The position numbers and the translations under genes are program-made. Positions 4,452 through 42,803 of a DNA stretch of 64,000 nt are shown here, piece after piece. Positions within the stretch are counted from its first letter, which is position 1; each line of letters starts with the position of its first letter. The notes under the pieces are model-generated. The model was not told where the DNA came from. It made no database searches and saw only the letters and a program-made list of their open reading frames with translations. The DNA comes from Bremia lactucae (taxonomy: Eukaryota > Oomycota > Peronosporomycetes > Peronosporales > Peronosporaceae). Location of the stretch: assembly GCF_004359215.1 (NCBI RefSeq), contig NC_090614.1, positions 1,865,005 to 1,929,004 on the forward strand. The letters are read 5' to 3'.

Positions 4452-5444
4452 GCGCGGGCGCAATTTGGTCCTGAAGACCGCGAAAACCAAGTTGGTAGGT
4501 AGGTTTTTAGCGTTTCATAGAACTCGGTCTCCGACCGCATAAGAATTAATACAGCATCTGCCTCTGACATCTGCTCGTTCTTTTTGTTTGTCTTGGCTAT
4601 CAGCCATCATGTCACCTACATGTCTAAAGACAATAAATCTCGTCGCGAAAAACTCGCTTACTTGTTTCCAAATGGCAACAAGGCTGATATTAGCAAGCCT
4701 ATCGGCTAATTCTCCTTCACCGAGCCCTGAGCCATGTAGTGGCATCGTTAACGGAACGCGTGGGTGGGTGAGACCGTTGACATAGAACGGAGTGTAGCCT
4801 GTAGAGGCATGGACAGCGTTATATAACGCAAATACCACCAAATCCCACCACTGGGAGCATTGAGCTCCAGCGCTTTGGTACCTGAGCACACACACTGCGG
4901 AAAACGTCTTAAAAGACGCAATTGACACGTTCAGTTTGACCATTGTCTGCCGATGGTACGCGGTGGAGATGTCCAATCTGGTGCCAAGTACTCGAAAAAT
5001 CGATTCCCAGAGTTTGCTCGCGAAAAGGGGGTCTCGATCAGAGATAATTACCACTGGCAAACCTGTTGTCGAAACACACGATCGATGAACAGCCTTAACC
5101 ATCAATGGTGCACGACGCAGCCGCTAAGTGAGCCATTTTACTCAATCGGTCAACAAAGACCACTATGCCGGTGTTACCGGCCGAATCTTTCGATAGACCG
5201 AAAACAAAATCCATACAAATGGACTCCCAACACCCTATGGGTACGAGCAGACTTGCAAGTGGTATAGCAGCATGCGCCGAGGGCTAAGCCCGCTGGCAGA
5301 ATTCGCATGTGCGAACGTATGTGCTGACCCATTTGTAAAGATTGGACCACCAAAAATTTGGCTTACAGAGCTGTTGGTCTTATCTCTACCGAGATGACCA
5401 CCAAAGACAGTATCATGTGCCTCAAAGAGGATTCCGTACTTCAA
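4452..5444 (-). pseudogene. Gypsy B1 integrase
   Basis: The 4515-5105 frame carries VVIISDRDPLFASKLWES (second catalytic Asp) and NAVHASTGYTPFYVNGLTHP. The stretch that should hold the catalytic Glu (DGQTERVNR) is destroyed by a frameshift after TAYHRQT. The frame at 5235-5444 holds the zinc-binding region start (YEAHDTVFGGHLGRDKT). Near-identical but differently broken sequence occurs at 37770-38800 and 61757-62960, which defines the family. Confidence 0.75.
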
Positions 5445-6246
5445 AGCCTCATCATGAGGAATAACGATGCGCGGAGTATCCGCAGCATCCGTGGAAAAAA
5501 GTAACAGGTATTATTCGACAAAAAATCGATGTAACATTGCACGCAGACTTGCCGACAATTTAAATCCGATTTAGTGCTCTTTAGAGCTCGTAGCCGAGCT
5601 ACACACTGTTCATCTTGGCCGTAAGCCAAACGGATTAATTCAGTAATAGGTGATATTTTTGTCGTTAAATAAGAGAGCTCATAATCCAGCCTGCGTGAGA
5701 CGCATTAGCCAAAGCATTCTGCTTGCCAGACTTATACTTCACCTCGAAGTTGTATTCGGCGAAAAAGGATAGTCATCGGGCCATTCTCTGTGAGAGATGG
5801 GGCGACTTAGTCGCCGTGCGTAATGACGCGTGATCTGTATAAATCACAAACGGCTTAGAGCCGAGCAGATGAACTTTGAATTTGACGAGAGCATACTTCA
5901 TAGCAAGTAACTCTTTGTCATGAACTGGGTAGCTCTTTTCCGCAGCTTTAATCTATCTAGACTCGAACGCAATAACACGTTCATGCCCATCAACATTGGT
6001 TTGTAAAAGAGCACTGCCGATGGCAAAATCTGATGCGTCACAGACGACACCGAAAGGCCAATTTGGATTAGGCAGTGCCAGAATCGGGGCATGGATAATA
6101 CTATCATTAAATGTTTGAAAAGCAATATGCTCTGTGCTAGTCCAGTACCAATCCGTATCGTTTTTAAGGAGATTGGATAATCGTCTAGTCATATCAGCGT
6201 AATTATTGCTATATTTGTGTAGTAGTTGGCGAGCGAAACCAACCAC
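5445..6246 (-). pseudogene. Gypsy B1 RNase H and linker
   Basis: At 5953-6246 the frame has YWTSTEH.AFQTFNDSI, then WPFGVVCDASDFAIGSALLQ, the start of the RNase H fold with its first Asp. Right-to-left continuation at 5780-5950 reads roughly as VHDKELLAMKYALVKF and the DHASLRT block, on interrupted frames. The linker towards integrase (5445-5780) is degenerate. RNase H would degrade the RNA strand during reverse transcription. Confidence 0.75.
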
Positions 6247-6249
6247 TCA

Positions 6250-7096
6250 CGCAAATCTTTTTGAATCTTAGGAACCGGCTAATCTACTATGGCTTCTGCC
6301 TTAGCGAGATCCGCTCTAAGACCTCGCTTCCCAGTAAAACACCCTAAGAATCGAATTTCTTCTGCGCCAAAAATGCATACAGATGCATTGACATACATTT
6401 TTTTGTGCGCACACACTCGATCACTGCTCGCAAATGTTCTATATGGTTTTACACGTCCGACCGACCCTGCTCCGAACGACTTTGGACAAAAATGTCATCA
6501 AAATAAGTCTGTGCATAACCTCGATAAGGGCGGAACAGTTGCGTCACTAGACAATTAAATTGTGCCGGGGCGTTATAAAGCCCTTGTGGCATAATTAATT
6601 ACTCCATAGCATACCGCTTGGGGTGCTAACCGCTGTAAGCGGGATATCGGTAGCTCGCATGAGCAGTTGGTAGGAACCACCGACAAAGTCAATTGCATTG
6701 TACATTGTACATCCCACCATATTGTTCTGAAGAACATCCTATCTAGGAATGAGGTTTTGTGCTAGTTTAGTGTCAGATTAAAGCTTACTATTAGCATGCA
6801 CAGTGCGCCATTTACCATTTGGCTTTTTGACACAAAATGGCGGTGTAGATTGAGGTGATGTACTCTCACGTACCATTCCATCCTCGTGCTTTTAGCACGG
6901 AAGCAAACGCCAACGACGTCACACTGTTCTCTTGGTAAAAGGACACTGTCCATTTACACAGTATTTGGTTCAATGAACCAAGTAAATTTCATGACGGACA
7001 CCTCTGTCCGGAGGCAAAACAGGTGGTGGGGTAGTACAGACCACATCTTGGATTCCTTAACTAAGAAAGAAAATTGGTCCGTGGAATCTTTAACCT
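6250..7096 (-). pseudogene. Gypsy B1 reverse transcriptase, 3' portion
   Basis: Degenerate RT. The minus strand near 6590-6690 carries remnants of the DIPLTAVSTPSGMLW block. Positions 6762-6953 match the conserved LPREQCDVV region that precedes the RT fingers in the sister copies. Multiple stops. The RT continues to the right of the nested Copia/SINE insertion at about 8426. Confidence 0.65.
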
Positions 7097-7165
7097 GTTG
7101 ATTTACGTTACGCTATGAGCTTGAAGATGGGCTTACGGTCGAGATTGCAAACCGGAAAGTAAGTT

Positions 7166-7432
7166 ATATTTTGAGTTTAACTTTATCCTACCGTTAGCTT
7201 TATCCTACCGTTAACTTTATTCTACCGTTAAATATTTCCTATCATTTGCTGCGCCCCCTTTCCCAGATATGTGGACTACCATAAAATGGGGGACGTCACT
7301 GTCTGGCGGTACAGTGCTGGTGAACCCCAAACACCAGTTCCCGAAGGTTTTACTTTTTGTCGTTACCGGGTATCGAACCGGTGACCAGTGGGTCGCACCG
7401 CCATGCCTTACCCGACTGAGCCACAACACACG
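7166..7432 (-). mobile_element. tRNA-derived SINE with 17-base tandem-repeat tail
   Basis: On the minus strand the head reads GTTGTGGCTCAGTCGGGTAA. It has an A box TGGCTCAGTCGG (7412-7423) and a B box GGTTCGATACC (about 7369-7379) at tRNA-like spacing, the internal RNA polymerase III promoter of tRNA genes. The body that follows is unrelated to tRNA. It ends in three tandem copies of a 17-base unit (plus strand CTTTATCCTACCGTTAA) at 7181-7197, 7198-7214 and 7215-7231. ATATTTT occurs on both sides (7166-7172 and 7433-7439), a possible target-site duplication. The insertion interrupts the Copia RT right after CGKYR. There is no anticodon-stem integrity to support a functional tRNA. Confidence 0.75.
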
Positions 7433-8425
7433 ATATTTTCCACATGGATCGCGCTTGATCCGAAATACCCACTTGCAGCCAACAGCCTTCTTGTTCGGTG
7501 GCATGTCCACTAACGTCCATGTGCTGTGTTCGTTGAGTGACTGCATCTCACTCTTCATCGCTTCCAGCCATTGCTCCTTGTTCGTACTCTTCAATACTTC
7601 TTCGTAGCTTGAAGCTTGTTCTCCATCACAATCTGCGACAAAGCAATAAAACGAGTCTTCACCTTCAAAATCGTCCAAGTTAAAGTGACCGCGACGTAAG
7701 TTGGGAAACTCTTGTTCGTAGCGCACCACACCGCGTTTCTTTCGAATTGGTCGCACCATCCACTCTTCTTCGCCGTCTCTTCCGGGCGTGCTTGATGCTC
7801 GAGTGGGAACCTGACCTTGAACACTGGACTCGTTTTGGCTACCACGAATCGGATCACGGCGAGCTCGAAGTGGCGGAGTCTGAAGCCTTTCATCATTTGC
7901 TGGAACCTCCAAACCATTGCCGTCAAGTGTCGACGTCTCCAAATTTTCATCATCATCAATGATGTCGATAATTCGATCGTGTTCCCTTTTCATTCCCTTC
8001 GAAATGGGATGTTCAGCAAATTGCACGCTTCTTGAAATCATGATCGAGCCATCATCCGCGTTAAGTAATCGGTACGCTTTGTGATCCTTTGCGTAACCAA
8101 GAAAATAACACTTTACGCCCGAATCGTCCAGCTTCTTTCGTTTCTCCTTTGTAACATGCGCGTAGCATTGCGAACCAAACACGCGCATGTGATCGATGCG
8201 CGGCTTTCGCTTGAACAACATCTCGTACGGACTTGACTTCTTGTTCGACGAGTTTGGAACCACATTCCGAATGTCTGCTGCTGTCATTAAAGCTTCGCAC
8301 CAGTAAGACTTGTCGAGACCGCTGTCCTTAAGCATGCAGCGCGTCATCTCTACCAGAGTCCGATTCATGCGCTCTGCCATGCCGTTCTGTTCACAAACAA
8401 TAGACAAATAAACTGTCTTCAAGCA
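7433..8425 (-). pseudogene. Copia integrase C-terminus / RT N-terminus fragment
   Basis: About 330 residues of uninterrupted Copia pol. They start near the integrase catalytic Glu (EQNGMAERMNRTLVEMTR), go through the conserved VFGSQCYAHV and KCYFLGYA blocks and a variable hinge, and enter RT at EQWLEAMKSEMQSL...TWTLVDMP...CKWVFRIKRD. Copia elements order integrase before RT, as seen here. The open frame continues to 7217, but its last ~70 residues are SINE read in frame, not protein. The 5' part of the element is missing. The long open frame suggests a fairly recent insertion compared with the host Gypsy. Confidence 0.85.
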
Positions 8426-9365
8426 TTTGCGGATCGATGATCCACTCCGCGCACTAAGTGCCGCTTTGTGTCCTCCAGGACGGCTTCATTTAGAAGTCGA
8501 TGATGTATTAATATTTGGTTAAATGACCACCATCTCAGAGTAGTCCCCAGACTTCAAGGCTCGGTCGAACGCATCAACAGACATTCGTCTAGCTCTAAGA
8601 AAGCATGTAACGAAGGCATTCCCCCAATGCTACAGGGCAGATAAAGGTTGCGAAACCTGTGAAGCTTGAAATAATAGATGTTCCGGCCTATAAAAGGCGT
8701 ATTGTCTCGACACCGTGACAGCGAAGACATGAAGCGTCAGTAACGTCACAAAGTGATACTAGCGAGCAGTTGCATACGCTTGTTAATGGTGTGACTGGGA
8801 ACATCGTGGGAAAATTTATCAGAGCTGGTGTCCAATCCGATATCCGAGGAGGAGTTTATAACTCAACTTCCGAGTCCAGTAAATGATCTGACCCGGAATG
8901 CCCTGGAAACCACCAATACTGACACTTAGTATGGTGCCACCTCGGCCGACCATACTTGATGGATTGAAACTTGCCACACCCCATGTGTCTCAGGGATATT
9001 ACACCCTTGATGTAGGCCTTGTCACTCGATGTAGTACGTGCCTTTCCACCCCTTTTTTCTGAGTCGGGTTCAAAACTAATGTTTTCAACATTAAATATTA
9101 GTAATTTGGACACTTTAATGTCTTAAACACTTATCAATTCAGTCAGTGATTCGCGCCGATAGCTCTTTAGCTGCCTAGCAAAAAGGGCTCATGACTCTTC
9201 AAAACTTTCCTAGGAAAATTGCGCGTGACGCCTAAGGTCTTAGACCTCCAATCGTTTCAAGACTTATTACGTTCAAGCCACGCCATACCAAGGATGAGAT
9301 TATATCTCGAATCCAAATCAAGGACGAGACAGCGTTCCACACTGTCAAAGTCCAGAAACTTCATA
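8426..9365 (-). pseudogene. Gypsy B1 protease C-terminus and pre-RT region
   Basis: At 9240-9365 the minus strand matches the post-protease block that reads ALDFDSVERCLVFDLNSRYD in sister copy B2, typical of Gypsy proteases just before RT. The region down to 8426 is the linker and RT N-terminus, with many stops. It holds one copy of a ~120-base segment (about 8895-9010) that is tandemly duplicated in B2. Confidence 0.65.
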
Positions 9366-9369
9366 CATG

Positions 9370-10030
9370 TAATGGAACGTTAGAAACTATTGAAGAGGCA
9401 GTTGCCATAGCGCTACGCACTCAGTTCGACTTCAAGTCTGCTCGTGATAGCGCGCCTGTTTACCGTACAAGCTCTTCGAGAACTTGGGTACCGTCAAATA
9501 GACCGGAACCCATGAATCTAAGCCTCATTGAGGAAGGAGAAGAAGCACTTCAAACTGTGAAACAGCATAAGAACATCCATAGATCTTATGTGTGCAGAAG
9601 CACGAAACATTTACGTCCGGCCTGTCCCCTACGCAATACGCGTAAAGCTCGAAAGAACACCAATTCCGACCTATACCTGAAATCTGGGAAGGTGCGGGAA
9701 AACTTCGATACCCAGTAGGTGGGGCCGCCCTACTGGGAGAAACCCAGGCTCTATTGAACCTCTAGCAGGTAAGATTAGACAGGACCTAGCTTCAAATAGC
9801 TCGGTGCGTAATGGCACGGGGCGTGGATAAAAAAAGCCTGGCTTGTTAGTCGCTCAAGCGACTGTGAAGGACTTTAACAAGCCATGGTCAATTTAAATTG
9901 ACTCAGGAGCGTCGTGCAATTATGCTCGACGACTTTCCCTTGAGGAAAATTAACAATACGTTGAGTCGCTTAAAGCTCATGAAAGTGATACAATCACTGT
10001 TCGCTTGGCTACTGGGATGTAGCAGAATTG
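9370..10030 (+). pseudogene. Inverted gag C-terminus / protease N-terminus block of Gypsy B1
   Basis: Plus-strand reading gives the gag tail (TIEEAVAIALRTQFDFKSAR, then NRPEPMNLSL, then a decayed zinc-knuckle region) in 9370-9720, and then the protease start with the DSGAS-like active-site block and ITVRLATG near 9900-10015. Gag upstream (10031-10584) and protease downstream (9240-9365) are on the minus strand, so this ~660-base block is flipped in place. Flipping it back restores the order seen in normal Gypsy elements. B2 has the same block with the same orientation and borders at about 41430-42085. Confidence 0.75.
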
Positions 10031-10584
10031 GATCGGAATAATTCCGTCCAGGCAACGCACTCATTGAGACGCCATAAAGATTGTTACGACAATTGCTTCT
10101 TGCACCGGGTCTTGATGCATAGATGCAATGAGAGTTCTCAACAACTAAACATTGCCCCCTAGGGTTCGTTTATCGCAATGAGCCGTGATCGCATGAGAAA
10201 AGCCTGATCAGCCGTTGCAAACATGCTGATTCCGTGAGGGGGAAGCGTCGTTTATGGTCGCGCTACAAGAGAGTGCTCACTCCATGGCTCTACCTCCCAG
10301 CTTGGAAATGGCCATAGCCACCTTTTGTCGTACTGTTAAGATCAAGGCGGAGTCAATGAACATCTCCATCTGCTTAATTTAAAAAAGAGGTTTTCTCCCT
10401 CTTTTCCCTCAAATGTCTTCACATTGACAACTAGAGGGCAAGCCTAAGGCTCTGAATCAGGTACAGAGCTATTCCGAGTTGGCATAGATGCCACAAGGTG
10501 ATCTTGAACCTGTCCGATCAGGGAGGATTCATATTGCATGAAGGCTTCAAGCCTTGTATGCAGAACCTCTGGTCCCTCAGACAT
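10031..10584 (-). pseudogene. Gypsy B1 gag N-terminus
   Basis: The minus-strand start is at 10582-10584 (MSEGPEVLHTRLEAFMQYES). It aligns with the plus-strand gag at 32530-33225, through [21 protein letters not shown] and on to the block before GFNEG. Stops and frameshifts follow. It ends abruptly at GACGGAATTATTCCGATCC, where the inverted block begins. Gag forms the particle that packages element RNA. Confidence 0.75.
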
Positions 10585-10707
10585 GATAAATATTATATGT
10601 TCAAGCCCAAACAAAGTTTTGAGCTTATCATACGCTGCGCGTTGCGCCTCAGAAAGTTCTGGAAACGTTTCTTTTCAGTAAAAGCTTAGTCTTAAGAAGA
10701 CTCAGAC

Positions 10708-10725
10708 TGACTACGAGTGCTACCA
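10708..10725 (-). other. Primer-binding site of Gypsy B1
   Basis: Two bases inside the 5' LTR the minus strand reads TGGTAGCACTCGTAGTC. TGGTAGC is complementary to a tRNA ending GCTACCA, as initiator Met tRNAs do. The same start recurs next to LTR3 at 20298 and, with one change, next to LTR2 at 34187. Confidence 0.55.
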
Positions 10726-10727
10726 GG

Positions 10728-11208
10728 TGTAGCGGAGCTGCCTCACTCCTTAAGTCAGAGGAAGACTTACAGACCCAAGATTCTCTTAGTTCTATAGAGC
10801 TACTAGGTTTAATAAATAAGGGAGTCGTGCAAGCTATTACAGCTTAAGGAATCCTAGTTTTAGGTCTTTAGGGGCTCGTAGAACCAAGTGGCAACTAGTG
10901 CCTAAGAGGATATACCTTAGAAAGGCCCTTATCTCTCATAGATCAATGCGCAAGCCTTAGGAAGGCACTAGTCGCTTTGAGATCAAAACGGAAACTGCAT
11001 TTTATTAAACTATTCAAATCTAATACCCTTCCTAGCTAACAGAAAATAGATTGCGACCGCCAAAATTATATCTGGCGGCGACCACATTTGTCACCAATGC
11101 TAAATGTAATCATAGTAATAAACTATTTAAAATAGGATAAAAGGGTATTTGACTTATAACGTAAATGTACCATACAACGGTTCTCTAACCAATATGTGCT
11201 CCATTATT
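10728..11208 (-). repeat. 5' LTR of Gypsy B1 (LTR1)
   Basis: 481 bases, matching 35655-36125 along its length, including the marker stretch ATATCTGGCGGCGACCACAT. The left end TGTAGCGGAGC adjoins the primer-binding site. The right end CCATTATT has decayed from CCATTACA. Its position next to the gag start identifies it as the 5' LTR of a minus-strand element. Confidence 0.8.
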
Positions 11209-11959
11209 CTATCAACATTGTGAGGTTAACTAGTACTGATAAGTACTATAGAAAAGTGCCCCGTTACAACAAAGACACCGCATGCTCGTTAAATTCGATT
11301 GGATGCAAGTCCGTAATTAATTAGGCTTTTTACGTATCACATGATACGCATTGCTATGTCTTACATAGAGCCCTGCATGCTACAATCACGACTGTACTCG
11401 GCGAGGCAAGCCTTTTTAATCAGTGAAGAGTACGTGAGCTTTATACATTTATGACGCAACTATTTGATTGTAACAAATTTTCTGTGCAGCTTGCCCCTCA
11501 TTCGCGACATGCAGCGCATTGGCTTTGACCTTACGCTCGTTTTAGCTTTGGCAAGAACTTTGTGTACCGTGGCAATAATAAATACTGCCACTTGAGTGAC
11601 ATGAAGAAGGCAACACAGATTCGACAATTGCCAACAGTTTAGTTTGCGCTGCCGCATTATAAAAGACACGTTTTTTCTCGAATTATTTTCGATTTTTTTT
11701 ATTTCATCTTAACCTTGCTCAATTGTCGGAGATACTAATTAGAGGAGTTTGAAAAAATCGCGTTAGCTGCGAACTGTGGGGTACAGCTGCTTTCTTTCTA
11801 ACGCCATAAGTCTGGAGCAATTCACTTCGTCGTAAGACTGTCCCGAACTTAGTGGATTATTAGTCACTGAGGATGGCAGGTTGGCATTCGGGCGACTCAT
11901 GCCCACATTGACGCAAAACAAGCAACTCCTTGTGAGAGCAGCGTGACATGCCCATTTCT
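11209..11959. other. Unassigned spacer between Gypsy B1 and D1
   Basis: No coding domain or known repeat was recognised. It may include the old 3' untranslated region of the D1 element, but it does not match the corresponding sequence beside D2 (14470-14800). Confidence 0.35.
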
Positions 11960-12169
11960 TCGGTAATGTACCTACCGGTGCAAGGTATAAATTGCATCGG
12001 TTGTCACGTAAGGTAGGACTTCCATGCCTCGTAGGGTGATCCCTGTCCGCGTTGTGTTGACAACACGAAGAGGGTAAAAAGGGATGTTCATTGTCTTTCT
12101 TCGCCCTGGGAAATGGCTCACATCTCTATTAAGATGCGGGATGCGATTAACGTTTTGCAATCGATTTTA

Positions 12170-12400
12170 CAGGCGCCAGGGGCGCGTGTTTTCCGATGGA
12201 CCTTCTGATCCATCGGATGGGTCTCTTCATGCTGACGGACGAGGCCCTCAACGTCAACAATCAGCTGGGAACGAGGCTACCAGCTGTCATGTGAAGACAG
12301 ATAACCGCGCCAGCGAACAAGATAACTCGTTCGCTGCCCCTTCACATCGGTGGTTTTGGATACGTTCCCCAAGGAAACGTTGACCACCGTGGGAATCCAC
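12170..12400 (-). pseudogene. Gypsy D1 chromodomain
   Basis: The minus strand reads TSYLVRWRGYLSSHDSW, then a TAG stop where D2 has the Glu codon of SWEPR, then LIVDVEGLV.QHEETHP. The stop is private to D1. D2 (about 15020-15190) keeps SWEP but has stops further on. Confidence 0.75.
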
Positions 12401-14160
12401 CAATGGTTATGGCGGAGAAGAAAATATAGATCTGACCCATGTGTCGGATCTAGAGTAAAAATTCGACAAACTCGATCACTTCCTCCATTATTTGGAGGAG
12501 AAACTTGATCACGAGCGCGGTAAGCGTCGCTCATTGGAGCAGACGTTGCAGGCTCACTATCTCGAATGGTTGGAAGACCTTTCGAAGGGTACGTACTCAA
12601 TGCTGGAGTGCGAACGGAAATATCACGCTCTTCATGATGAGCTGTCTTCCACTCATCGCGGTTTCGAGGATTTTCGGATCTGGCATGAGAATCTCCAGAT
12701 TCAACACGAAGACCTAGCTCGTGCCCACAAGAATCTTTTAGAGATTCTTGAAAGGGTGGTCAAATCCGTCCTCAGAAGAAACGGCGTACTGATGGTACGG
12801 GCGGAGCCGACCAACGGAAAACGTAGGATGCGTTCGCATCCTTTGTAACAATTCTATTGTGAACGCATTGCCTCTGCGATGTAGTACACGAAAAGGCCCA
12901 AGAACTTGGGGAGTAATTTACTACTACCCACATTAGTGACAACAAACATGCTTAGGTAAGTTTACCGTAGACAGTAGTATTAGATCATTAATTTTAAATA
13001 AAACAACATTTACTTTTCCATGTTTGTCTCCTGCAACCGCAGCGAGAACGGGGCGTGCACCTACCACTGCGTTGGCAATGGAATCCTGAATGAAACGGAC
13101 TACTGATTCTCGAGCCAGCAAAAAATCCTCTGTTGACTCATTTGTTTTGTCTTTTCGAGTGCGCTTTGAGCGCACTGCCATGAAATCTTTTCATCTTCGA
13201 CGTTGATTGCTTCGGCATCGCGTCGTTGGTAACTTCGACTCGTGATGAGCATGAGCCAGAAATGGTTTTGCTCGTGCGAGTCCGCCCCCCCTTCAACTAG
13301 AGGATCCCTCTAATTGGATGGGTATGCGTAGATGGCGTAAGCCATTTACGAAGAACAGTGTATGCGTTGTAGATGCTTGCACCGAATTTTTAATGGCGAA
13401 TTCGACCATCGGTAAGACCTCGCTCCAATTCGGATACGATTGGACGTAACCTCGAAGTATCTCTTCGAGGACACGATTTACGCATTTCGTCTGACCATCT
13501 GTCTCTCGATGATCAGAAGTTGACGTAGTCAGCCGTTTTCCGAGAGATCGAAACACGTATTTCCAAAACGCCGCCGTGAACCGTGGATCTCAATCCGAGA
13601 CTAGTTTTCAGGGTAAACCTTGGAGTTTAAATACCGCGTCGATAAAGACACGGGTACAGCACGAAGCCGTGATCGACTCTGGTACTGCAACAAGATGAAC
13701 CATCTTGCTGCATCTGTCTACAAAAACAAGGATTCCATTGTTTTTGTCATCGTCTTCGAGAAATTTGAAGACAAAGATCATAGATACGGACTGCCAACAC
13801 TCTGCCGGAGGTGGGAGAGGTTGGAGAGGTGCACGGGATGAAGGGCTAGGCTTCACCCGTTGACATACCTTGCAAGTACGAACGTACTTGCGCACGAACT
13901 GATACTGGCAGGGCCAGTAAAAGTCGCGACTTACAGTGAGGTAAGTTTTCTCACGTCCACGATGTCCACTTGTTGGAGCATCATGACAGTCATACATGAT
14001 GCGCAAGCGCAAATCATTGTGAGTAGGGACGACAACACGTGGAATGTCGTTGGCAACGGCTATGTAGTACAGTAAGTCGTTGCGGGTTGTGTATCGATCG
14101 GACGACAATCGGTATAAAGCCGGTAAATCTTTAAAAGATTTATTAAATGAATTCATGAGA
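12401..14160 (-). pseudogene. Gypsy D1 integrase
   Basis: The zinc-binding start and core lie at 13608-14156 (GHRGREKTYLTVSRDFYW, CKVCQRVKPSPSSRAPLQ), the rest of the core at 13293-13556, and the C-terminal part at 12933-13181 and in 12410-12850. The first catalytic Asp is replaced (MIFVFKF where family copy D3 has VDFVFGF). The catalytic Glu of DGQTERVNR is Lys (DGQTKCVNR). Two stops flank the middle Asp. Frames on the plus strand over 12492-12848 are shadows of the C-terminal domain. The enzyme could not be active. Confidence 0.8.
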
Positions 14161-14470
14161 TGATCGATTAAATGGAGAAGGTCTTTATCTTCTGTGTAGG
14201 CTTTTTTATGTCATCAAACAGAGGTGATGATGGAACACTTGTAATGAGTGTTGCAACAGTGGGATTATTTTCACTGCTCGAGTGCACAGCCGGCTCGAAA
14301 TCGGGTCAGCGTGATAACGCATTAGCGACGACATTAAGTCGTTCTAGTTTATATTCTACGAAGAAATTATTCTCCGTAAAGAAGGATAGCCACCTCGCCA
14401 TTCTTTGCGAGAGGTGTGGACTGTTTAGGGCCGTGCGTAATGACGCATGGTCCGTGTCCGAGTACATACA
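14161..14470 (-). pseudogene. Gypsy D1 RNase H tail and linker
   Basis: The minus strand carries remnants of RMARWLSFF and the LSRRP.F linker, with NNPTVAT beyond it, matching 16935-17275 in D2. The element ends at about 14470, followed by unrelated sequence. Confidence 0.6.
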
Positions 14471-14800
14471 ATAAAATGTCTCGTCTTACCCTGAGAAAAA
14501 GCCGTGGCTTTACCCGAACGGCTAGTCAGTAACTTGTCTGGAGAGACAACTCCTCACAATTAATATCCTTTATTTATTGCGGCAAAGCTACATGGCCTGG
14601 ATCCCAGCGCGAAGAACTTTTGCGCTAAGGAAGATTTTTACCTCGATGGTTTTCTTAAGCATCGATGGTATAGTGGCAACAACAAGCGAGATAAAATCTC
14701 GTTAATGCAAGCCTGAAGCGCGTTTTTTTCCAATGTCAAAGACATTGGATGCGGCTTCAAAGTCCTAACGCAATTCGCGTTAAGTTTGAGAAACGAATCC
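14471..14800. other. Spacer between D1 and D2, probably the 3' region of D2
   Basis: No gene. It lies just downstream (in minus-strand sense) of the D2 chromodomain and is presumably its 3' non-coding tail. The 3' LTR of D2 is absent, so D1 and D2 are joined without an LTR between them. Confidence 0.4.
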
Positions 14801-32292: not shown

Positions 32293-32505
32293 TGTATTGG
32301 GCACACATCGGTTGGAGAACCGTTGTTGTGGTACATTTACTTTATGGGTAAAATACCCTTTTATCTAATTTAAAATAGTTAGTTACTTAAATCGCATTTA
32401 TTATGGGTAATAAATGTGGTCGCCTCCAGATATAAATCTGGCGGCCAAAATCTATTATGTTAACTAGCTAGGGTAAGGTTTTTAGATTTAAATAATTAAA
32501 TAATG
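32293..32505 (+). repeat. LTR1 5' portion (plus strand)
   Basis: TGTATTGGGCACACATCGGT corresponds to the 5' end of LTR1 read on its sense strand (complement of 36106-36125). Similarity runs through the TCTGGCGGCC block to about 32505. The remainder of the LTR, the primer site and the gag start codon are missing, so it joins gag by a deletion. Confidence 0.75.
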
Positions 32506-32529
32506 TTCAGCTCCCCTTTTGATCTTATT

Positions 32530-33225
32530 CGGGCTTGTGCACGTGGAATTTATTATTTCCCAAGGACCAGAGGTCCTGCATGCAAGGCTTGAAGCCTTCA
32601 TGCGGTACGAAGCCTCCCTGATCGGTCAGGTACAGGACCATTTAGCGGCATCTATGCCAACCCGGTACATCTCTGAACCTGACTCAGAGCCAAGGGCTCG
32701 CCCTCTAACTGTATATGTGAAGACATTTGAGGGAAAAGAGGGTGAAAATCTCCCTTTTTGGATTAAGCAGATGGAATTGTCCATTGATTCCGCCTTGTGT
32801 TTAACAGAACGGCAAAAGGTGGCTATGGCCATTTCCAAACTTGGAGATAGAGCCATGGAATGGCACTATCCTGCAGCGCGTCCATAAATGACGCTTTTCC
32901 CTCATATGATTCGCTGAAACAGCAAATGACGAGCATGTTTGCACCGCCTGATCAGGCTTTTCGCATGCGAGCACGGCTCCTAGTGACTCGACTGGGTAAA
33001 AGAACCTTAGGAGACTTTGTCCAGGAGTTGAGAACTCTCATTGCATCTATACATCAAGACCCGGTGCAAGAAGAAATTGTAGTGACCATTTTTATGGGGG
33101 GTTTCAATGAGGGCGTTGCCCGGACGGAATTGTTCCGATCTCATCCGGCTACGTTCGAAGAGGCAGTTGCCATAGCGCTACGCTCCGAGTTTGACTTTAA
33201 GTCTGCTCGCGTTAGCACGCCTACA
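32530..33225 (+). pseudogene. Gypsy family B gag fragment
   Basis: [20 protein letters not shown] starts just inside the lost initiation codon. The retrotransposon gag domain follows ([35 protein letters not shown]), with a frameshift at about 32875, then SYDSLKQQMTSMFAPPDQAF, LGDFVQELRTLI, and FEEAVAIALRSEFDFKSAR. Similarity to the B1/B2 gag tails stops near 33225, where a different gag begins on the other strand. Confidence 0.8.
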
Positions 33226-34177
33226 ACGTCTGCATTGCCCAACTCCATGGGAGTGGCGTCTGACCTCTCGGCCGACGGCTTATACCAAGCTGTCGCCGAG
33301 GCACTGTTGTAGGATTGTTCCTTAACTGAGGCAATTTGGATTGCCTCTTTCATCGTCGACGGCTCTTTTCTGAAAAGGGCCTGTCGCGATGGGCCATGCC
33401 GTAGTCCGTTCATAAACGTGGGCACCTTAATGTGCTCCGGAATCGGACCTACGGTTATGGATGCGGACAGCGAGCGCATCTCTTGCACATACTCTTGCAG
33501 AGATCGCTTCGCCTGTCGCGCCCCAAAGAAGCGCGCCTGAAGCAACACTTCGTTGTTCGGCGGCTGGTACATGGCGCGAATCTTATCCTTAAAGATCGCC
33601 CATGAGGGGAACGCTTTTCTGTCCGCCATAAGCGCCGAGTAAGCCCACTCTGAGGCCTTACCAAGCAGGTGCGACATGGCGTACAACACCATCCGGCTGT
33701 CGTCCTCGATGAGCTGCGCGACACCACATTGCTCCACAGCTTAAAGCCAGTGGACAATCGTGTGCGCTGCAGTTCCAATGAACATGGGCGGGTCCATCGG
33801 AATGGGCCTCGGCTGATGCGGCCCGGGCAGAGAGCATCTCAACAGCCCTGTTAAGAGCCTCGCTCCGAGCCTGCTCATGCCTCAGCTCATCCTGAGTCCT
33901 GAGTCTGAGTGACGGACTCCGCCGCAGCATGGCTCTGTGCCTCGGACGCGGCCCTCCGCTGTCCGAGCACAAATGCCTCAAACTGCTCCAACTGAGCAAC
34001 ATGTTGCTCAGGAGGACTACCCAGGAGCCTGGCCAGGGCTTGTTCACCAAGTCCCTGCGCCATTAGCCCTGCCATCTCCCGATGATGTTCGGAGAGGTGG
34101 GGGAAATGAGCCCAATCAATATTGAGGCTCATCCTCACGAACACACGCAGAGATGCGGGTCGTGAGAAGGATCTCAA
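33226..34177 (-). pseudogene. Gypsy gag of another family (probably A), minus strand
   Basis: The N-terminus is near 34130 (MSLNIDWAHFPHLSEHHREM) and runs through LGEQALARLLGSPPEQHVAQ to about 33900. A frameshift and a TAA in the middle follow, then an intact tail at 33225-33737 (LIEDDSRMVLYAMSHLLGKA, MYQPPNNEVLLQARFFGARQ, LQEYVQEMRSL, DATPMELGNAD). Right of it lie a primer-binding site and an LTR2 end, which assigns this gag to the LTR2 family. Its end at ~33225 abuts the oppositely oriented family B gag. Confidence 0.75.
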
Positions 34178-34323: not shown

Positions 34324-35654
34324 TGATCATCTCGCCGCTATTTAGAAATACCCTAACCCATCCCGGTTCAACCGTAATCGCTCCGCGGATTGAGTGGTTG
34401 GGGCAAGGCCCATTTATTTGATGATCATATTTAGCAGAATAGGCTTGAAGAACCAGTCACTGCTGTACAAAGTTTGAGTTGCCTAACGAAACATGGGCTG
34501 CCTTTTTTGTGGTATAGACAGCCTATGTTATGTCAGGCGGATTAATAATCCCACGGGCTTGCTCAAAGAATTGGAATATGGCGACTCTTTTGTTTTGTCG
34601 TAATTTAGATCAACCGTTTTTTTGGCGGGACAAGCTCAGCATCAATCATGACCGTACCATGGAGGATTATAGAGAACTCAGATACGTTGTCGTCCAGGTG
34701 TCTTGTAGAAAGCCGCTTTCTAGGCTCCACCAGCGCCGTATTCATATCCTGCGACCGAACTAACCGAGACGGATGTCCCGAAGATACCACATCCACCTAA
34801 AGATCAGGCGTCGGACAGGCTCATTTTTAGTAAGAGATACGCCCACTAAAAGCAATCCGTCCGGTGGCGCAGGATCCCGAGAAGGCTACACTAAACTTAC
34901 ACTCTCCAGAAAATGTATCTGGTCGAATACAGAGCTGCGATTCGCGCGGACAGTCTCTATCTCAGGACGCTGGGAGCGCTGTTTCCCAACCTTTGGCTCA
35001 GGCAGCTTGCAATCCGGCGCTGGTCGCTCCCCTGGGATTGGGTTCGCCAATCCATGCATATTGCGTGCTAGGCGAAAAAGTTCCTGGATCAAGCCTAACA
35101 TCGCGGAGTTGCACATGTGCTAAAGTACTCTCAAACCTGACAGCTGTTGGGGTTAAGCGGGGCTGTAAATTGAAAAGTGGAGGTATTGTTAAATACTAGC
35201 ATGGCGGCTAGCAAACCTTCGAAATCGAACCGAAGCTCCGCTAAAAGCGTGCGCCGCTCGCTTCATTATCATACGTGAGAAAAATCATCTCTCCTGAAAC
35301 GCTAGAGTCTGAGCCAGGGCAGTCTACAGCTGCTAAGACCCGTGTTATGATAGGACTTACGCCAGAATTCTCATTTTTCTCTTCTTATCGTGGAAACGAG
35401 CCAAGAGCTGTCGGGCAAATTTGTCTTTGATTATGAAGGTATTTAAAGGCGGATCTAGCAAGAAATCTTCAAGCGTTTATCTTCCTCTAAATGAGTTATA
35501 ATTGCGGATTTTACTAACTCGAAAAGCTATACCCCAAGCTCGCCTCGTTGCGCGATACGATTGGTCTTTAAGAGTCCGTGTCTTAGGCTGATGATGATCG
35601 TGACCAATATCGAAACTAACCACAGATTAAGTGATTAGGCTATCGCACTGCAAA
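34324..35654. other. Unassigned sequence
   Basis: Several overlapping frames of 60-115 residues on both strands (for example 34773-35199), none with a domain I recognise. Possibly an old retroelement. No LTR or terminal repeat was seen. Confidence 0.35.
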
Positions 35655-36125
35655 TGTTGCGGAGCTACCTCGCTCCCGAAGTCAGAGGAAGACTTTAGAC
35701 TCAAAGAGTCTCTTAGCTCTATAGAACTAATTAGTTTAACAGCTGAGTAACTACTGAAGCTTAATGAATCCTATTTCAAAGAATTTGAGGGCTCGTTGAA
35801 CCAAGTGGCACCTAATGCCCAAGAGTATATACCTTCGAAAGGCTTCTATCTCTTACAGATCAATGGGCAAGCCTTAGGAAGGCACTAAACGCTTTAAGAT
35901 CAAAAAGGAAACTGCACTTTATTTAATTATTTAAGCTAAAACCTTTCCCTAGCTAATTTAAAAATAGAATTTACCGGCAAATTTATATCTGGCGGCGACC
36001 ACATTTGCTACCCATAATCGATGTGATTGTAGTATTATTTATTTTATATTATGATAAAAGGTTTTTTACCCTTAAAGTAAATGTATCACGCCAACGGTCC
36101 TCCAACCGATGGGTGCCCCATTACA
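35655..36125 (-). repeat. 3' LTR of Gypsy B2 (LTR1, best-preserved copy)
   Basis: 471 bases, TGTTGCGGAGC...GCCCCATTACA. The minus strand immediately before it reads GATGGGGGAGG, a polypurine tract (36128-36138), which marks it as the 3' LTR. Other LTR1 copies or pieces: 10728-11208, 21236-21465, 22445-22856, 32293-32505, 42095-42348, 42804-43268. Confidence 0.85.
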
Positions 36126-36291
36126 ACCTCCCCCATCAGACTGCTGACACCGAGTGACAACATTCGCTTCATCCTCTTTGTGGTTGAAGCCGAAACAGCT
36201 AACCGTTCGGTTGTGTTTTCCTTTCCTTTGTCTCATGACAATCAAGCATAAGTGACGGATTTTCAGCACCTCTCTCGACTGTGGAGGAATA

Positions 36292-37282
36292 ATGGGCTTT
36301 GAAAGTCACTCTCTATCAGAGGATGAGGAGAAAGAGCGTCGCTCTTACACGCCTTCTCCTCCGGATGAACGTCGGCGGGCCCCCAATCCGATCCCAGATC
36401 GTGGTGCCACTGATGTCTCAACTGCATTAAGCAGGACACAGACCCTGAGTCCAATATTATTACGAATTCGCTCGATGAAGAGCAAGAGCAGATGCTCCTC
36501 ATAGATGTAAGAGCTCGTCGTCGAGCTGCCGAAATAGCAAAAGCTAAAGCTCATAGTGAATGTAGCTTCATTCCGCTAAGTGCGGACGAGCGTCTCGAAA
36601 AGATAGCTGGTCACAGCTTGGCTATCTGGACCTCCGATCCTGCGGCGAATTCGCCGGAAGAGATCGCTGCCTGCGATGCTCTTCATGAGCAATGCCTTAC
36701 GCAAAAGGTAATGACGCGAAGCTGGATTTTTTTATTAAATCTAAATTTTCCAAATTTATATATTTTAACAATTTATTTTGAACCTTGCCAGTATCTGACG
36801 CGCTTACGTGATCAAGCCCGTGGGGCTCGGTGACCTCCATTATGGAAATTCCGATCGTTTTGTTTCTAAACGAAACAAGGAGTGAAAACGAAGTCTCATT
36901 TGAGAACGGGGTCCACCGGGCCCACCGACTTCGTAATATTTGGAATATCAAAAAGTCTGCGGATAGAGGTGATGTTCGTTTGGAACGGGAGCTTCGCTAC
37001 GATTTTGCTAAGCTTAATGCCAAAGGCCAGTTACGTTCGGCATTAATGCCACAAAACGAAGAAAGGCCTAGCCAATATTTCAGTGCTTTGGTTGACCGTA
37101 CAATCATGGATCGAAGCCGCACTGAGGCTTTAGATCCACCTAATCCCACATTTAGTGGTGGAAAGCGTCGTTTGACGCAAGTTGACCTGAGCTTGGCGCT
37201 CAAGAACGTCAACGGCGTACGGGCAATCTTGCCGAAGGGGTACCTCGAACTCCCAAGAGTTTTCAGAAGAGGGGTACCCTAG
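36292..37282 (+). CDS. Opposite-strand ORF between chromodomain and 3' LTR of Gypsy B2 (hypothetical, broken)
   Basis: Consecutive plus-strand frames: 36292-36504 (MGFESHSLSEDEEKERRSY, acidic then basic), 36492-36720 (RARRRAAEIAKAKAHSE, then IAACDALHEQCLTQ) and 36830-37282 (SENEVSFENGVHRAHRLRNI...LPKGYLELPRVFRRG). Two other family B ends carry the same frame: 43455-44201 and 60868-61652. The 36492 and 43455 frames share ARRRA, KAK, a W, and AAC.AL..Q.LTQ while their DNA has diverged, which suggests protein-level constraint. An AT-rich 68-base insert (about 36721-36788), absent from the 60.9 kb copy, breaks it here. The 3' part overlaps the chromodomain on the other strand. No known domain; function unknown. 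Confidence 0.45.
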
Positions 37283-37405
37283 CCACTTCACCAGATACTG
37301 GTATTGACCCGACGATGTCGCTTTAAAAAGTTTCTCTTTATGAAACTGAAGGTTCCCGTGCGCATCAAGCAGCGCGGGAGGGGGCCGAAATATCGGCGGA
37401 AGCAT
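37130..37405 (-). pseudogene. Gypsy B2 chromodomain
   Basis: Reads NLQFHKEKLFK, then QYQYLVKWLGYPSSENSWEF, then VPLRQDCPYAVDVLE, a complete chromodomain with its aromatic and acidic positions. It continues from the integrase linker in the 37406-37627 frame after a break. The equivalents at about 44010-44160 and 61342-61491 are degraded by stops. Confidence 0.8.
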
Positions 37406-37649
37406 CTAATGCTCTACGGCACGAGATTCAACTTCATCGTGAGGTCCTTGCTCGAAATGATAGCTCTTTTGTGGCGGTTCGGGACCGTCTTTCGACGCTA
37501 AAGCGTCAGCAGCCTCGTTTAGATGGCCAGCTAGACATCCTGGGGAGGATACAGCAATCTGCGGCACGACCGCCTGTCTCGGCGCAAGTGCCGTGGGAAG
37601 GGTCCCGATATGGCTTAAGCAAACCAACGTAGATCACTGGGTGTGTACG

Positions 37650-38810
37650 CAGCTTGCTACGAAGGTTAAGCGTTTAAGCTAGGCCTTTCTTGGCCACGAC
37701 CGTAAAAAAAGGTCCAATAAAGCGCGGGTGCAATTTGGTTTTGAAGACCGCTAAACGATGTTATTAGGTAGATTTTTAGTGCTTAATAAAACTCAATCTT
37801 CGACCATATAAGAATTAATATAGCTTCTGCCTTTGGCATCTGCGTGTTCTGTTTGTTTGTCTTGGCTATCAGTCATCTTATCCTTTACATGTCTTAAGAC
37901 ACTAAATCGCGTCGCGAGAAACTCGGTTAGTTGTTTCCGAATGGTAACAGGGCTGATATCAGCAAGCCTATCGGATGAACCCCCCCCCAAGCCCTGAGCC
38001 ACGCAGTGTAATCTACAACAAAAGGTGAGACCGTTGACATTGAACGAAGTATAGCCTGTAGAGGCATGTGCAGCGTTACTTTGCGCAAGCTCCACCACTG
38101 GCAGCGTTGGTGGAGCTTTCGCAAAGAGCTCCAGGGCTTTGGTGTCAGAGCACACACACTGTGTAGTACGTCTTCAATGACGCGATTGACACGTTGAGTT
38201 TGACCATCGATCTGCGCATGGTTCGCAGTAGACATATCTAATCTGCTGCCAAGCGCTCGAAAAATTGGTTTTCAGAATTTACCCGTGAAACGGGGGTCCC
38301 GATCAGAGACAATTGCCACTGGCAAACCATGTAATCGAAACGCGCGATCAATGAACAGCCTTGCTGTACCTTCAGCATCAATGGAATCTGGCACAGCCGC
38401 TAAGTGCTCCATCTTGCTCAATCGGTCAACAAAGACCACAATGCCGGAGTTACCGGTCGAATCCTTCGGTAGACCGGAAAAAAAATCCATACTAACAGAA
38501 TCCCAACATCCGATGGGTACGCCAGTGGCGCAGCAGCATGTGCCGAGGGCTGAACCTGTTGGCAAGTTTCGCATGTGGGAACGCATGTGCTGACCCATTT
38601 GTAGAGTTTGGGCTACCAATAAATCTGAATTACAGAGCCAAAGGTCTTGACTCTACCGAGATGACCACCAAGGATAGTATCCTGTGCCTCATAGAGAATT
38701 CGCCCTGAAATTCTCATCATGAGGCAAAACAACGAGGCGCGGAGGATTCGTCGCGTCCGTGCAATAAACCAACAGGTTCTTATCGATTGAAAATCGATGT
38801 AATTTTGCAT
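37650..38810 (-). pseudogene. Gypsy B2 integrase
   Basis: Catalytic core at 38272-38619: SVSMDFFSGLPKDSTGNSGI with the first Asp, and VAIVSDRDPRFTGKF with the second. The 37927-38235 frame supplies STANHAQIDGQTQRVNRVIE, where the catalytic Glu is Gln (TQR for TER). 37793-38155 gives NAAHASTGYTSFNVNGL and the RHVKDKMTDSQDKQ region. The zinc-binding start is at 38613-38810 (YEAQDTILGGHLGRVKT). Broken by frameshifts. Confidence 0.8.
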
Positions 38811-39519
38811 GAACGCGCCTAAAGTTTGAAACCCGATTCAGAGTTCTTTAAAGCTCGTAGCAGAGCTACACACTGTTCATACTTGCCGTAAGCCGAACGG
38901 ATTGATTCAGTAATAGGCGACATAATAGTCCTCAAATGAGAGAGCTCAAAATTCGGCCTGCGGGATAACGCATCGGCAAATGCATATTAATTGCCAGGCT
39001 TATACTTCACCTCGAAGTTGTATTCGGCGAAAAAGGATAGCCATCGAGCCATTCTCTGAGAGAGATGGAGCGACTTAGTCGCCGTGCGTAAAGGCACGTG
39101 ATCTGTATAAATCTTAAACGGCTTAGAGCCGTGCAGATGGACTCTGAATTTGACGAGAGCATACTTCATAGCAAGCAACTCTTTGTCATGAAATAGGGAG
39201 TTCTTTTCCAAAGTTTTTAGCTGTTTAGACTCGAATGCAATAATACTTTCACGCCCATCAACATCTGTTTGTAACAGAGCATCGTCAATGGTAAAATCCG
39301 AAGCGTCACAGACGACACTGATCGGCCAATTTGGATTTGGCAGTCCCAGAATCGGGGCATGGATAAGACTATCCTTAACTGCTTGAAAGCATTATGCTCT
39401 GTGCTAATCCAGTACCATTCTGTATTCTTTTTAATGAGATAAGATAATGGCCTGGCCACATCAGCATAACTTTCGCTATATTTGTGTAAATAATTGGCGA
39501 GACCCAACCACTTACGCAA
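38811..39519 (-). pseudogene. Gypsy B2 RNase H and linker
   Basis: The 38987-39211 frame reads LFHDKELLAMKYALVKFRVH, YTDHVPLRTATKSLHLSQRM and ARWLSFFAEYNFEVKYKPGN. The 39217-39519 frame reads LANYLHKYSESYADVARPLS and the following connection region. The two frames are separated by a stop and a frameshift. Confidence 0.8.
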
Positions 39520-40290
39520 CTCTTTTTGGTTTTTAGGAAGCGGCCAATCTACTATGGCTTTTTCTTTGTGGGATCCGCTCTAAGGCCTCGCTTTCCAATG
39601 CTGCATCTATAAAAAGGAATTTCGTTGCGCCAAAAATGAATTTAGATGCATTAGTATGCAATTTGTTTGTGCGCATGCACTCGAGCACTGCTCGCAAATG
39701 GTCAAAATGGTTTTCCACATCCGACCGACTCTGCTCCGCACGACTATGGACAAAAATGTCATCGAAATAAGTCTATGCATAACCTCGATGAGGGCGAAAG
39801 AGTTGCGTCACTAGACATTTAAATATTGCCGGGGCGTTGGAAAGCCTTTGTGGTATAACCAGCCACTCCCATAACATGCCGCTTGGGGTGCTAACCGCTG
39901 TTAGCGGGATATCACTAGCTCGCGCATGAGCAATTGGTAGTAACCATTGACTAAGTCCAATGCACTGTACATTGTACATCCCACAATATTGTTCTAAAGA
40001 ACATCCTTTCTAGGAAATTGGGATTTGTGCTGGTATAGTGACAGCATCAAGGTTATTATAAGCATTTACAATGCGCCATTTACCATTGGCTTTTTGACAC
40101 AAAACGTCGGTGTCGAATGAGGAGATTTGCTCTCTCGTACCATTACAGCCTCGTGCTTAGCACAAAGAATTTGTCAAAGACGTCACACTACTTCCTTGGT
40201 AAAGGCCATTGTCGTGTGACACAGTATTTGGTTTCCGGAACCAAGTCAATTTCATGACGGACACCTCTATCCGGGAATAAAAATGGATCC
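39520..40290 (-). pseudogene. Gypsy B2 reverse transcriptase
   Basis: 39773-39979 gives ASDIPLTAVSTPSGMLWEWL and RLSNAPAIFKCLVTQLFRPH. The YFDD motif and its FVHSRAE neighbour are just left, on a broken frame. 39533-39718 is the thumb region (HLRAVLECMRTNKLHTNASK). The fingers region lies at 39980-40290 with stops. Confidence 0.75.
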
Positions 40291-41415
40291 GTAAGATCTC
40301 TAAGGATCGATGACCCACTCCGCTCACTTAGTGCAGCTTTTGTATCATCAAGGATAGCTTCGTCCGGAAGTGACGATAAGTTTAGCTCAATCGTACGTTA
40401 CATGACCACCATCTCAAAAAAGTCGCCAGCCTTTAAGGCTCGGTCGCACTCATCGATTGACATTTCTTCTGTCTCTAAAAGAGCATATATGAAGGGATTA
40501 CCGCAAGGCTAACTTCTCCCTCAATGTTACCGATTACACCATATAAAAGCGTGTGTAATTGCTAACTCGTATCACTTGTGAGGGTCTTGGAGTAGAGACT
40601 GCGCCTCTTGGAGGCCGGAACATTCACGTCTTCGAATTCTTCAGCCTGTATTGGTTCTATACCAGACATGGTGTCTATAAGAAATATTCGACATCCGACA
40701 AGTAGTTAGGTAACCTTAATTTCTTATTTAGCGAACGTTTACCTGTCGCTTCACGTGCATTAGAAGGGTTTGACCCAAAGCCCTGGCAAACTGCCAATAG
40801 TGTCACTACTGACACTCATTATAATGCCACCTCGGCCGACCACACTCGGTGAACTTAGACATGCCACTCCACGTATCTCAGAGATATGGCACCCTTGTGG
40901 TCCTGGCGAACCACCAATAGTGTCACTACTGAAACTCAGTTTGGTGCCACCTCGGCCGACCACACTCGGTGGACTTAGACGTGCCACTTCACGTATCTCA
41001 GGGATACTACACCCTTGATGACTCAGCCTTAGGCCAACAATGCTTCCATCATCAGTGCTTCGCTATTACAACGAGTGTCACTCGACGGGGTACGGGCCGT
41101 TTCACTTCCTTCTTTTGAGTTGGGCTCAGAATTAATGTTTTCAACATTAGAGTCTATTAACTCAGAAATTTCAATGCTTGAAACACTGACAGACTCAGTC
41201 AATAATCCGCGCCAGTAGCGCATTTGTTGTCTAGCAAAGGTGGGTTCATGACTCTCCAAAACCATGCTAGAAACATTGCGCGTGGCGGCTAAGGTCTATC
41301 GATCCATGGCTCATTACGTTCATGTCATGCCAGGCCATTCGAAGGATGAAATCATATCTCGAATTCAAATCAAAGACGAGACAGCGCTCCACACTGTCAA
41401 AGTCCAAAGCCTTCA
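40291..41415 (-). pseudogene. Gypsy B2 pre-RT region and protease C-terminus
   Basis: The minus strand at 41300-41410 reads ALDFDSVERCLVFDLNSRYD and MSHGSIDL, the protease/RT junction block of Gypsy elements. 41029-41265 is a continuing frame (MVLESHEPTFARQQMRYWRG). A unit of about 120 bases at 40783-40900 is repeated at 40901-41020; B1 has it once. Confidence 0.65.
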
Positions 41416-41429
41416 AACCTAAGTTCAAC

Positions 41430-42085
41430 GGAACTTAAAAAACTATTGAAGAGGCAGTTGCCATAGCGCTGCGCGCTCAGTTCGAGTTTAAGTCTGCTCG
41501 TGTTAACGCGCCTGTTTACCGTACAAGCTCTTCGAGATCTTGGATACCGTTTAATAGACCGGAACCAATGGATATTAGCCTCAGTGAGGAAGGAGAAAAA
41601 GCACTATAAGCTGTTAAACAGCATTAAAACATCCGCGGATATTATATGTGCGGAAGCACGAAACATTTACGTCCGGTCTGTCCCCTACGAAATACGCGTA
41701 AAGCTCGAAAGAGCACCGATTCCGACCTATACCGACAATTTCGTACGGTGCGGGAATGCGTCGTTACCCAGTAGGTGTGGGGCGCCCTACTGGGGAAGAC
41801 CTAGGCTCTGTTGTACTTCTAGGAGGTTAGAGTAAACAGAAACTAACCCCAATTTCCTCGGGGCGTAATGGCACGGGTCGTGAGTACAAGCCTGGCTTGT
41901 AAGTCGCTCAAGCGACTGTTCAGGGCTTTAATTAGCCTGGTCAATTTATATTGACTTACGAGCGTCTTGCAATAATGCTCGACGACTTTCCCTTAAGAAA
42001 AATCAACAATACGTTGAGGCGCTTAAAGCGCATGAAAGTGATATAATCACTGTTCGCTTGGCTACTTTCTTGTAGCAGGATTGGA
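41430..42085 (+). pseudogene. Inverted gag C-terminus / protease N-terminus block of Gypsy B2
   Basis: The plus strand reads TIEEAVAIALRAQFEFKSAR, NRPEPMDISLSEEGE, then a decayed knuckle region. Near 41955-42060 it carries the protease start (D.RASCN.ARRLSL, then YVEALKAHESD). Homologous to 9370-10030 in B1, with both borders in matching positions. Left of it the palindrome AAGTTCAACGGAACTT lies at the junction. Confidence 0.75.
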
Positions 42086-42094
42086 TCGAAAAAA

Positions 42095-42348
42095 ATCCCT
42101 AGGAAGGCACTTAACCCTATAATATCAAAAGAAGAATTGCACTTTATTTATTTAAATCTAAAAACCTTACCCTAGCTAATTAAAAATAGATTTTGGCCGC
42201 CAGATTTATATCTGGCGGCGACCACATTTGTTACCCATAATAAATAGGATTTAAGTAACTAACTCTTTTAGAAAAAGATAAGGGTATTATTCCCATAAAG
42301 TAAATGTATTACAACAACGGTTCTCCAGCCGGCGTGTGCCTTATGACA
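42095..42348 (-). repeat. LTR1 fragment, 5' LTR of Gypsy B2
   Basis: Matches the right half of 35655-36125, including TATATCTGGCGGCGACCACA, and ends near TTATGACA (decayed CATTACA). It is joined directly to the inverted block; the rest of the LTR, the primer site and the gag N-terminus are deleted. Confidence 0.75.
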
Positions 42349-42803
42349 GCAAAAGTAGGTAAATAAGTTGAGATACCGTCTGCGTTATGACCTATTCAAC
42401 TCGAGCTTTCTTGTGGACCACAGGCGAGGCGAGCTATTCAACATCGAGAGATTCCTTAGAAATGGACCGATGTGTCCTTACGGTGCGTAAAGGGCACTAT
42501 AGCGTTTCGTCTGTAGGTCAAGAAATACCTGTACGCATGAATACTATTACGTGTACATCCATGATACTGCCTTGATTAGATTCGTACAATCGTTTTCTGA
42601 CTAAACACAGATGCAACCCGTCCGGCGTTTTACATAGGGGCTACTTAAGTCAAATAATGAGCGATGCTTTCTCAGGTTTAAAAGGAGGACTAATGTTATC
42701 GGTTTCCATAAACACACCTGAAAGGAAGTTACAGATAAGCTGCATGACAAAAAGGCCGGTTAATGAAACGAGGTCTTTACCTCGATGTTGCGACAGCCCT
42801 ACC
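42349..42803. other. Unassigned spacer
   Basis: No gene or repeat was recognised between two LTR1 copies. Confidence 0.4.

Follow-up and report, generated by a model that had tools for sequence, protein, structure and literature searches.

One gag-protease microinversion in two neighbouring Ty3/gypsy copies of Bremia lactucae, perhaps copied between them by gene conversion

Introduction

Microinversions between human and chimpanzee are short segments replaced by their reverse complement, and microhomology-mediated break-induced replication has been proposed to explain them (PMC8755829). In plants, the paired long terminal repeats (LTRs) of LTR retrotransposons undergo gene conversion, an exchange that disturbs their dating (PMC7251063). 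Here we describe a locus of the oomycete Bremia lactucae where the two processes may have met. The window, 64,000 nucleotides of contig NC_090614.1 (positions 1,865,005 to 1,929,004, forward strand, assembly GCF_004359215.1), holds two old copies of one Ty3/gypsy element, family B, in which the same gag-protease block lies the wrong way round. As in the primate cases, a short segment has been replaced by its own reverse complement, but here the flip spans about 630 bp, with a 2-bp overlap and a small loss. As in the plant cases, sequence would have been exchanged between repeat copies, but here between separate copies and carrying an inversion. A literature search joining internal inversion, retrotransposon and template switch returned no match, from which we claim no absence from print; we regard the locus as a new example of known processes. 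Coordinates below are those of the window.

Family B is a Ty3/gypsy element, presumably of the lineage called chromovirus-type. Like such elements it has a 5-bp target duplication and the customary succession of Gag, aspartic protease, RNase H, integrase and chromodomain, gag and protease being taken from L023, a copy with the normal ("canonical") block order; L-numbers denote other family B copies fetched from the genome. Profile searches found in the copy B2 an RT_RNaseH match (E 1.6e-25), a Chromo domain (E 1.4e-8) and, 3' of the RNase H, an rve match below the curated cut-off (E 9.2e-5). B4 (61862-63987), a related copy, matched SH3_Tf2-1 (E 3.8e-10), and the L023 reading frame gave Retrotrans_gag at E 1.4e-4, marginally below its cut-off, and RVP_2, the aspartic protease, at E 1.9e-4, marginally above its own. 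Unlike a standard chromovirus, the copies B1 and B2 are both broken and have the gag-tail/protease-start block reversed. Neither could supply the full protein set, because a Copia fragment interrupts B1, while most of gag and part of an LTR are gone from B2.

The same block is flipped in two copies

The initial annotation of the window had proposed that one gag/protease block is flipped at matching places in B1 and B2, both of which lie on the minus strand. This proved correct, and alignment of the two copies against 16 canonical copies refined the borders to those given here:

4452..11217, minus strand: B1, a degraded Ty3/gypsy copy (presumed chromovirus type), delimited by alignment to B2 and to genome copies
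10018..10614, minus strand: B1 gag N-terminal part in normal orientation, matching canonical loci and window 32525-33152
9387..10017, plus strand: B1 flipped block, the gag tail with a zinc-knuckle remnant plus the start of the aspartic protease
9020..9386, minus strand: B1 protease C-terminal part in normal orientation
35655..42348, minus strand: B2, a degraded Ty3/gypsy copy with both LTRs (RNase H, weak rve, Chromo domain)
about 41442..42070, plus strand: B2 flipped block, with borders at positions equivalent to those in B1
42071..42098, minus strand: B2 residual gag of about 27 bp, just outside the right border, after which a deletion runs into the LTR
32296..33240, plus strand: B3, a fragment that keeps the canonical order through LTR, gag and roughly 90 bp of the start of the block (block extent by eye), our control within the window

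The searched genome comprises 115.9 Mb (115,934 kb) in 220 contigs. When window 9300-10100 served as query and the best 40 of 1637 first-look candidates were scored, B1 and B2 were colinear across the block and both its flanks; in the remaining copies scored, 38 of 38, the block (9386-10017) matched one strand and the matched flanks the other, as the canonical order requires. When B2 served as query instead (best 40 of 1647 candidates scored), the colinear copies were B2 and B1 only. Queries of 100 bp laid across each join were spanned, among the best 40 of 730 and the best 40 of 1052 candidates scored, by B1 and B2 only, the remaining matches ending at the join. A left-join pattern allowing at most 3 mismatches picked out no places other than B1 and B2. 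The pattern for the right join found B1 only, B2 having drifted past 3 mismatches. No third flipped carrier came up among the candidates scored or by the join patterns, which a more decayed carrier could escape. The flip is also clear of assembly joins: runs of N stand at 4352-4451 and 23233-23332, and the nearest gap is about 5 kb off. A tandem duplication that had been listed among the differences between B2 and B1 turns out to be no peculiarity of B2, since the 116-bp repeat (40782-40897 and 40902-41017) is also in canonical copies such as L029, L011 and L023.

Read in the canonical sense against the 16 canonical copies, the gag break is TGCTAC/TTTTGAAGAGG, and the protease break falls between CTGGGA and GTTCC with about 11-13 bases lost, the range reflecting the two ways of assigning a 2-bp AC overlap. 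One join has this overlap, the other one added T, and both have equal positions and spacing in B1 and B2. Beside the right join 4 of 6 bases differ between the two copies through drift, so B1 is the main basis for the added T and for the precise end of the block. Placed on L023, the gag break is upstream of the zinc knuckle (motif by eye) and the protease break comes after the active-site motif (by eye), about midway along the stretch that matched protease; with the flip, the sense strand thus no longer carries the last part of gag or the protease's catalytic half. A single event behind both flips is supported, because border positions and spacing are shared and so are rare variants near both borders. 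We see the flip as an old scar and not as a new kind of element, and we found no sign that it does anything.

Inside and outside the block

A rare base is here one present in at most 3 rows of an alignment; places fetched twice were removed before counting. L008, L067, L071 and L074, each (near-)identical to a retained row over a 200-bp stretch or the whole block, were partly or wholly excluded from the 41-row block tree and from the distance, rare-base, stem and inversion-survey sets. L008 and L074 were also excluded from the protease-3' and LTR trees; the 51-row block tree retained all four.

Over the 625 columns of the block B1 and B2 share 7 rare bases; B1 shares at most 3 with any other row (mean 0.57). 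Elsewhere the two share 2 in protease-3', 2 on the reverse transcriptase (RT) side, none in RT and none in the 5' LTR, nowhere above the B1 background. The estimated shared stem is 0.028 in the block (standard deviation, sd, 0.0085), 0.000 in protease-3' (sd 0.010), 0.007 on the RT side (sd 0.013), 0.004 in RT (sd 0.0065) and -0.027 in the 5' LTR (sd 0.0086). The block tree joins B1 and B2 as sisters, with support of 77/21 (51 rows) and 92/79 (41 rows). On a wider list, of bases found in less than 10% of the other rows, 11 of the 11 shared block sites are close to a border, no further than about 100 bp from the left one or 141 bp from the right one, and none falls in the middle 390 bp. We read the block as a segment that was probably shared and afterwards overwritten in patches.

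A conflict of subfamilies between block and protease-3' was tried as a separate test of B1 and B2 and dropped: the clade of the block tree is not recovered for protease-3', whether B1 and B2 are included or removed (p-AU 0.001 and 3e-5, from the approximately unbiased, AU, test).

Insertion and age of the copies

The ends of the two copies are as follows:

35650..35654: B2 target-site duplication GCAAA, left
35655..36128, minus strand: B2 3' LTR (inner end by eye)
42094..42348, minus strand: B2 5' LTR, its inner part deleted along with most of gag
42349..42353: B2 target-site duplication GCAAA, right
10728..11217, minus strand: B1 5' LTR, with outer end ...CAACA followed by TTGTG, from alignment to the B2 LTRs and reading of the edge
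4352-4451: run of N behind which the left end of B1 is lost

B2 begins with TG at 35655 and ends with CA at 42348 between perfect 5-bp GCAAA duplications, and the LTR starts exactly at the position of 35655 in 27 of the 39 other places with the main LTR match; B2 looks like one insertion at its own site. Its tRNA primer-binding site has been deleted. The two LTRs of B2 stand at a Kimura two-parameter (K2P) distance of 0.238 over 251 sites. Between B1 and B2 the K2P distance is 0.158 in the block, 0.274 in protease-3', 0.296 on the RT side, 0.187 in RT and 0.26-0.34 in the LTRs. Judged by these distances, the inversion is probably old, of the order of the B2 insertion.

A mosaic in the pol of B1

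Within the pol of B1 a further tract links it to another copy. L077 (C5:1708000-1717900), on the same contig and 158 kb from B1, is an outlier match, 95% identical over 2109 bp where the next best reaches 85% (best 40 of 2554 candidates scored). In 100-bp windows the identity is highest, over about 1.5 kb, in one segment:

4452..5905, minus strand: B1 pol segment, 96-100% identical to L077

It is 94-95% at 5906-6105, 83-89% at 6106-6603 and 96% in the final 45 bp of the stretch compared, 4452-6648. At the same place the identity of L077 to the young copy B4 rises from 73-91% to 93-99%. The pattern among B1, L077 and B4 appears to be that of a recombinant, and the tract shared by B1 and L077 makes ectopic conversion plausible. 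Within L077 the matches imply an inverted repeat of about 1 kb (1-1101 versus 1780 onward), and the copy reads N after 4995.

How the flip came to be shared

To explain these results we propose, at a probability of roughly 55%, that one microinversion arose and was then copied between B1 and B2 by ectopic gene conversion. In one old copy, be it B1, B2 or an ancestor, a piece of gag-pro of about 630 bp would have been turned round in the repair of a double-strand break, by end joining or a microhomology-mediated path. The 2-bp overlap, the single added base and the loss of about 11-13 bp suggest that this repair used almost no homology. The flipped segment with both its joins may then have been copied, in one direction or the other, between two neighbours that share an orientation and stand 32 kb from each other; in age this step would be comparable to the B2 insertion. 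Later conversion patches and point decay would have turned both copies into mosaics. We prefer conversion to the spread of a flipped master because the excess of rare variants is clear in the block only and because the carriers are 32 kb apart; a second carrier landing at random would fall within that distance with a chance of about 2 x 32/115,934 = 6e-4.

The initial annotation had offered one inversion followed either by spread of a master copy or by duplication of the locus. Its single shared inversion stands; gene conversion, which it did not list, seems to fit better. A flipped, non-autonomous master mobilised by the proteins of intact relatives, with B1 and B2 as two insertions, is a less likely course that we keep as a tentative alternative. 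It would suit a B2 that has LTRs, a perfect GCAAA duplication and a site of its own, and the flip spares the LTRs and most of pol. The B1-B2 distances (block 0.158, RT 0.187, protease-3' 0.274) are of the order of the 0.238 of the B2 LTR pair, so that the flip could predate both insertions, and 13 bases exclusive to B1 and B2 in pol 5501-6560 point the same way, although they are confounded by a young comparison set. Such a master, however, has left only two carriers among the best 40 scored of more than 1600 candidates, these carriers are same-orientation neighbours, and the rare-base excess of the block is absent from protease-3', RT and the 5' LTR. Nor did these candidates include dispersed flipped copies with independent target duplications, as expected of a non-autonomous subfamily: there are two carriers, with a duplication visible for B2 only, and decayed carriers may be missed. 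Duplication of the locus, with flanks later lost or replaced, is improbable. B1 and B2 do share one contig and one orientation at 32 kb, and the left end and left flank of B1 are hidden by the gap at 4352-4451, the stretch to the left of which may not be its own flank. The visible flanks are nevertheless unrelated, no score exceeding the best of 40 shuffles in 8 comparisons (4 pairs, both strands; 752 bp of B1 right flank), and B2 is bounded by LTR ends and its own target-site duplication.

The repeat-rich, gapped assembly invites the suspicion of error; a published assembly of the species had a length of 115 Mb, 24 Mb of gaps, and repeats covered 2.1-fold (PMC6570648). We consider this very unlikely for the flip itself: the same joins occur at two loci whose blocks are about 85% alike and which have different private changes, and the gap is about 5 kb away. 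Two independent inversions at one hot spot are more doubtful still, even though inversions recur in family B (8678-8818 of B1, L014, L017 and some 45 bp in L018). The other inversions have different borders, and the protease bases missing from B1 are also those missing from B2, with equal spacing at both joins; on these shared joins we rejected independent origins.

Several observations weigh against copying of the block by conversion. The comparison copies are those nearest to the block of B1 or of B2, a choice that biases the sets, and sister support within the block is weak to fair. Trees of protease-3' and of the LTRs lack the B1-B2 sisterhood, yet do not reject it (p-AU 0.36 for protease-3', 0.27 and 0.14 for the LTRs); the LTR tree has little power, because it fails to unite B2's own two LTRs. 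The 3' LTR of B2 shares 4 rare bases with B1, whose maximum with another row is also 4, and its shared stem is 0.0145 (sd 0.0084, 5-95% 0.002-0.028). Such bases, where missing from the 5' LTR of B2, are more likely due to chance or conversion than to common descent, because the LTRs of B2 should have been identical at insertion. Inside the block, at 9681-9875, the distance between B1 and B2 is 0.193, larger than their medians to other copies (0.161 and 0.150). B1 and B2 have no rare site in common in the 117 bp outside the left border (9270-9386), which leaves the outer limit of a conversion tract out of view. The 13 exclusive bases of pol 5501-6560 come with a stem of 0.014 (sd 0.0046), from a test against six genome copies and B4, all young, with L077 excluded from stem and counts; with such a set the signal cannot separate sisterhood from B1 and B2 both being old, and it does not favour a signal confined to the block. 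Finally, chimeric assembly could have produced the L077 tract, which starts at the assembly gap of B1, and L077 itself passes into N.

A shared inversion is a marker nearly free of homoplasy, and can serve to trace exchange among repeats when point changes carry too much noise. If the flip was carried by conversion, shared structures in repeats need not mean shared transposition, which bears on how repeats are classified and dated.

Other inversions and neighbouring features

Against three canonical copies, in-place inversions were flagged among 48 distinct sequences in B1 (two), in L017 (about 200 bp) and in L018 (about 45 bp). Losses at a border led the script to class L014 (about 430 bp) and B2 as "other"; by inspection both are in place. 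L007, L027 and L034 contain inverted duplications, and L038, unflagged in this survey, has an inverted segment at the end of homology. In this small sample microinversions are not rare; sharing one is. We raise as a speculative possibility that dead copies undergo in-place microinversion (about 45-630 bp) at a high rate and that conversion passes these flips to neighbours, so that structural variants spread without transposition; the hint of frequent microinversions in this genome can be tested across many families together. The second inversion of B1 and the insert that splits this copy are:

8678..8818, plus strand: second in-place inversion in B1, about 141 bp, absent from B2
7094-8430: Copia fragment of about 1.3 kb splitting B1 (SH3_retrovirus E 1.1e-27, sub-threshold RVT_2)

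The Copia insert has a long open frame of 422 aa at 7217-8485. In B2, plus-strand reading frames at 36256-36833 lie past the chromodomain, in antisense to pol at its 3' end, and matching DNA is present in L077. A profile search gave no convincing Pfam match for these frames, which could be an antisense extra gene or chance.

In another repeat family of the window, about 220 bp at 17793-18013 is flipped relative to 58109-58319, with neighbours that align the opposite way and a partly palindromic word at one border. A head-to-tail duplication of about 2.5 kb (11971-14455 and 14799-17285, 94% identical) also matches 58670-60845 in inverted orientation.
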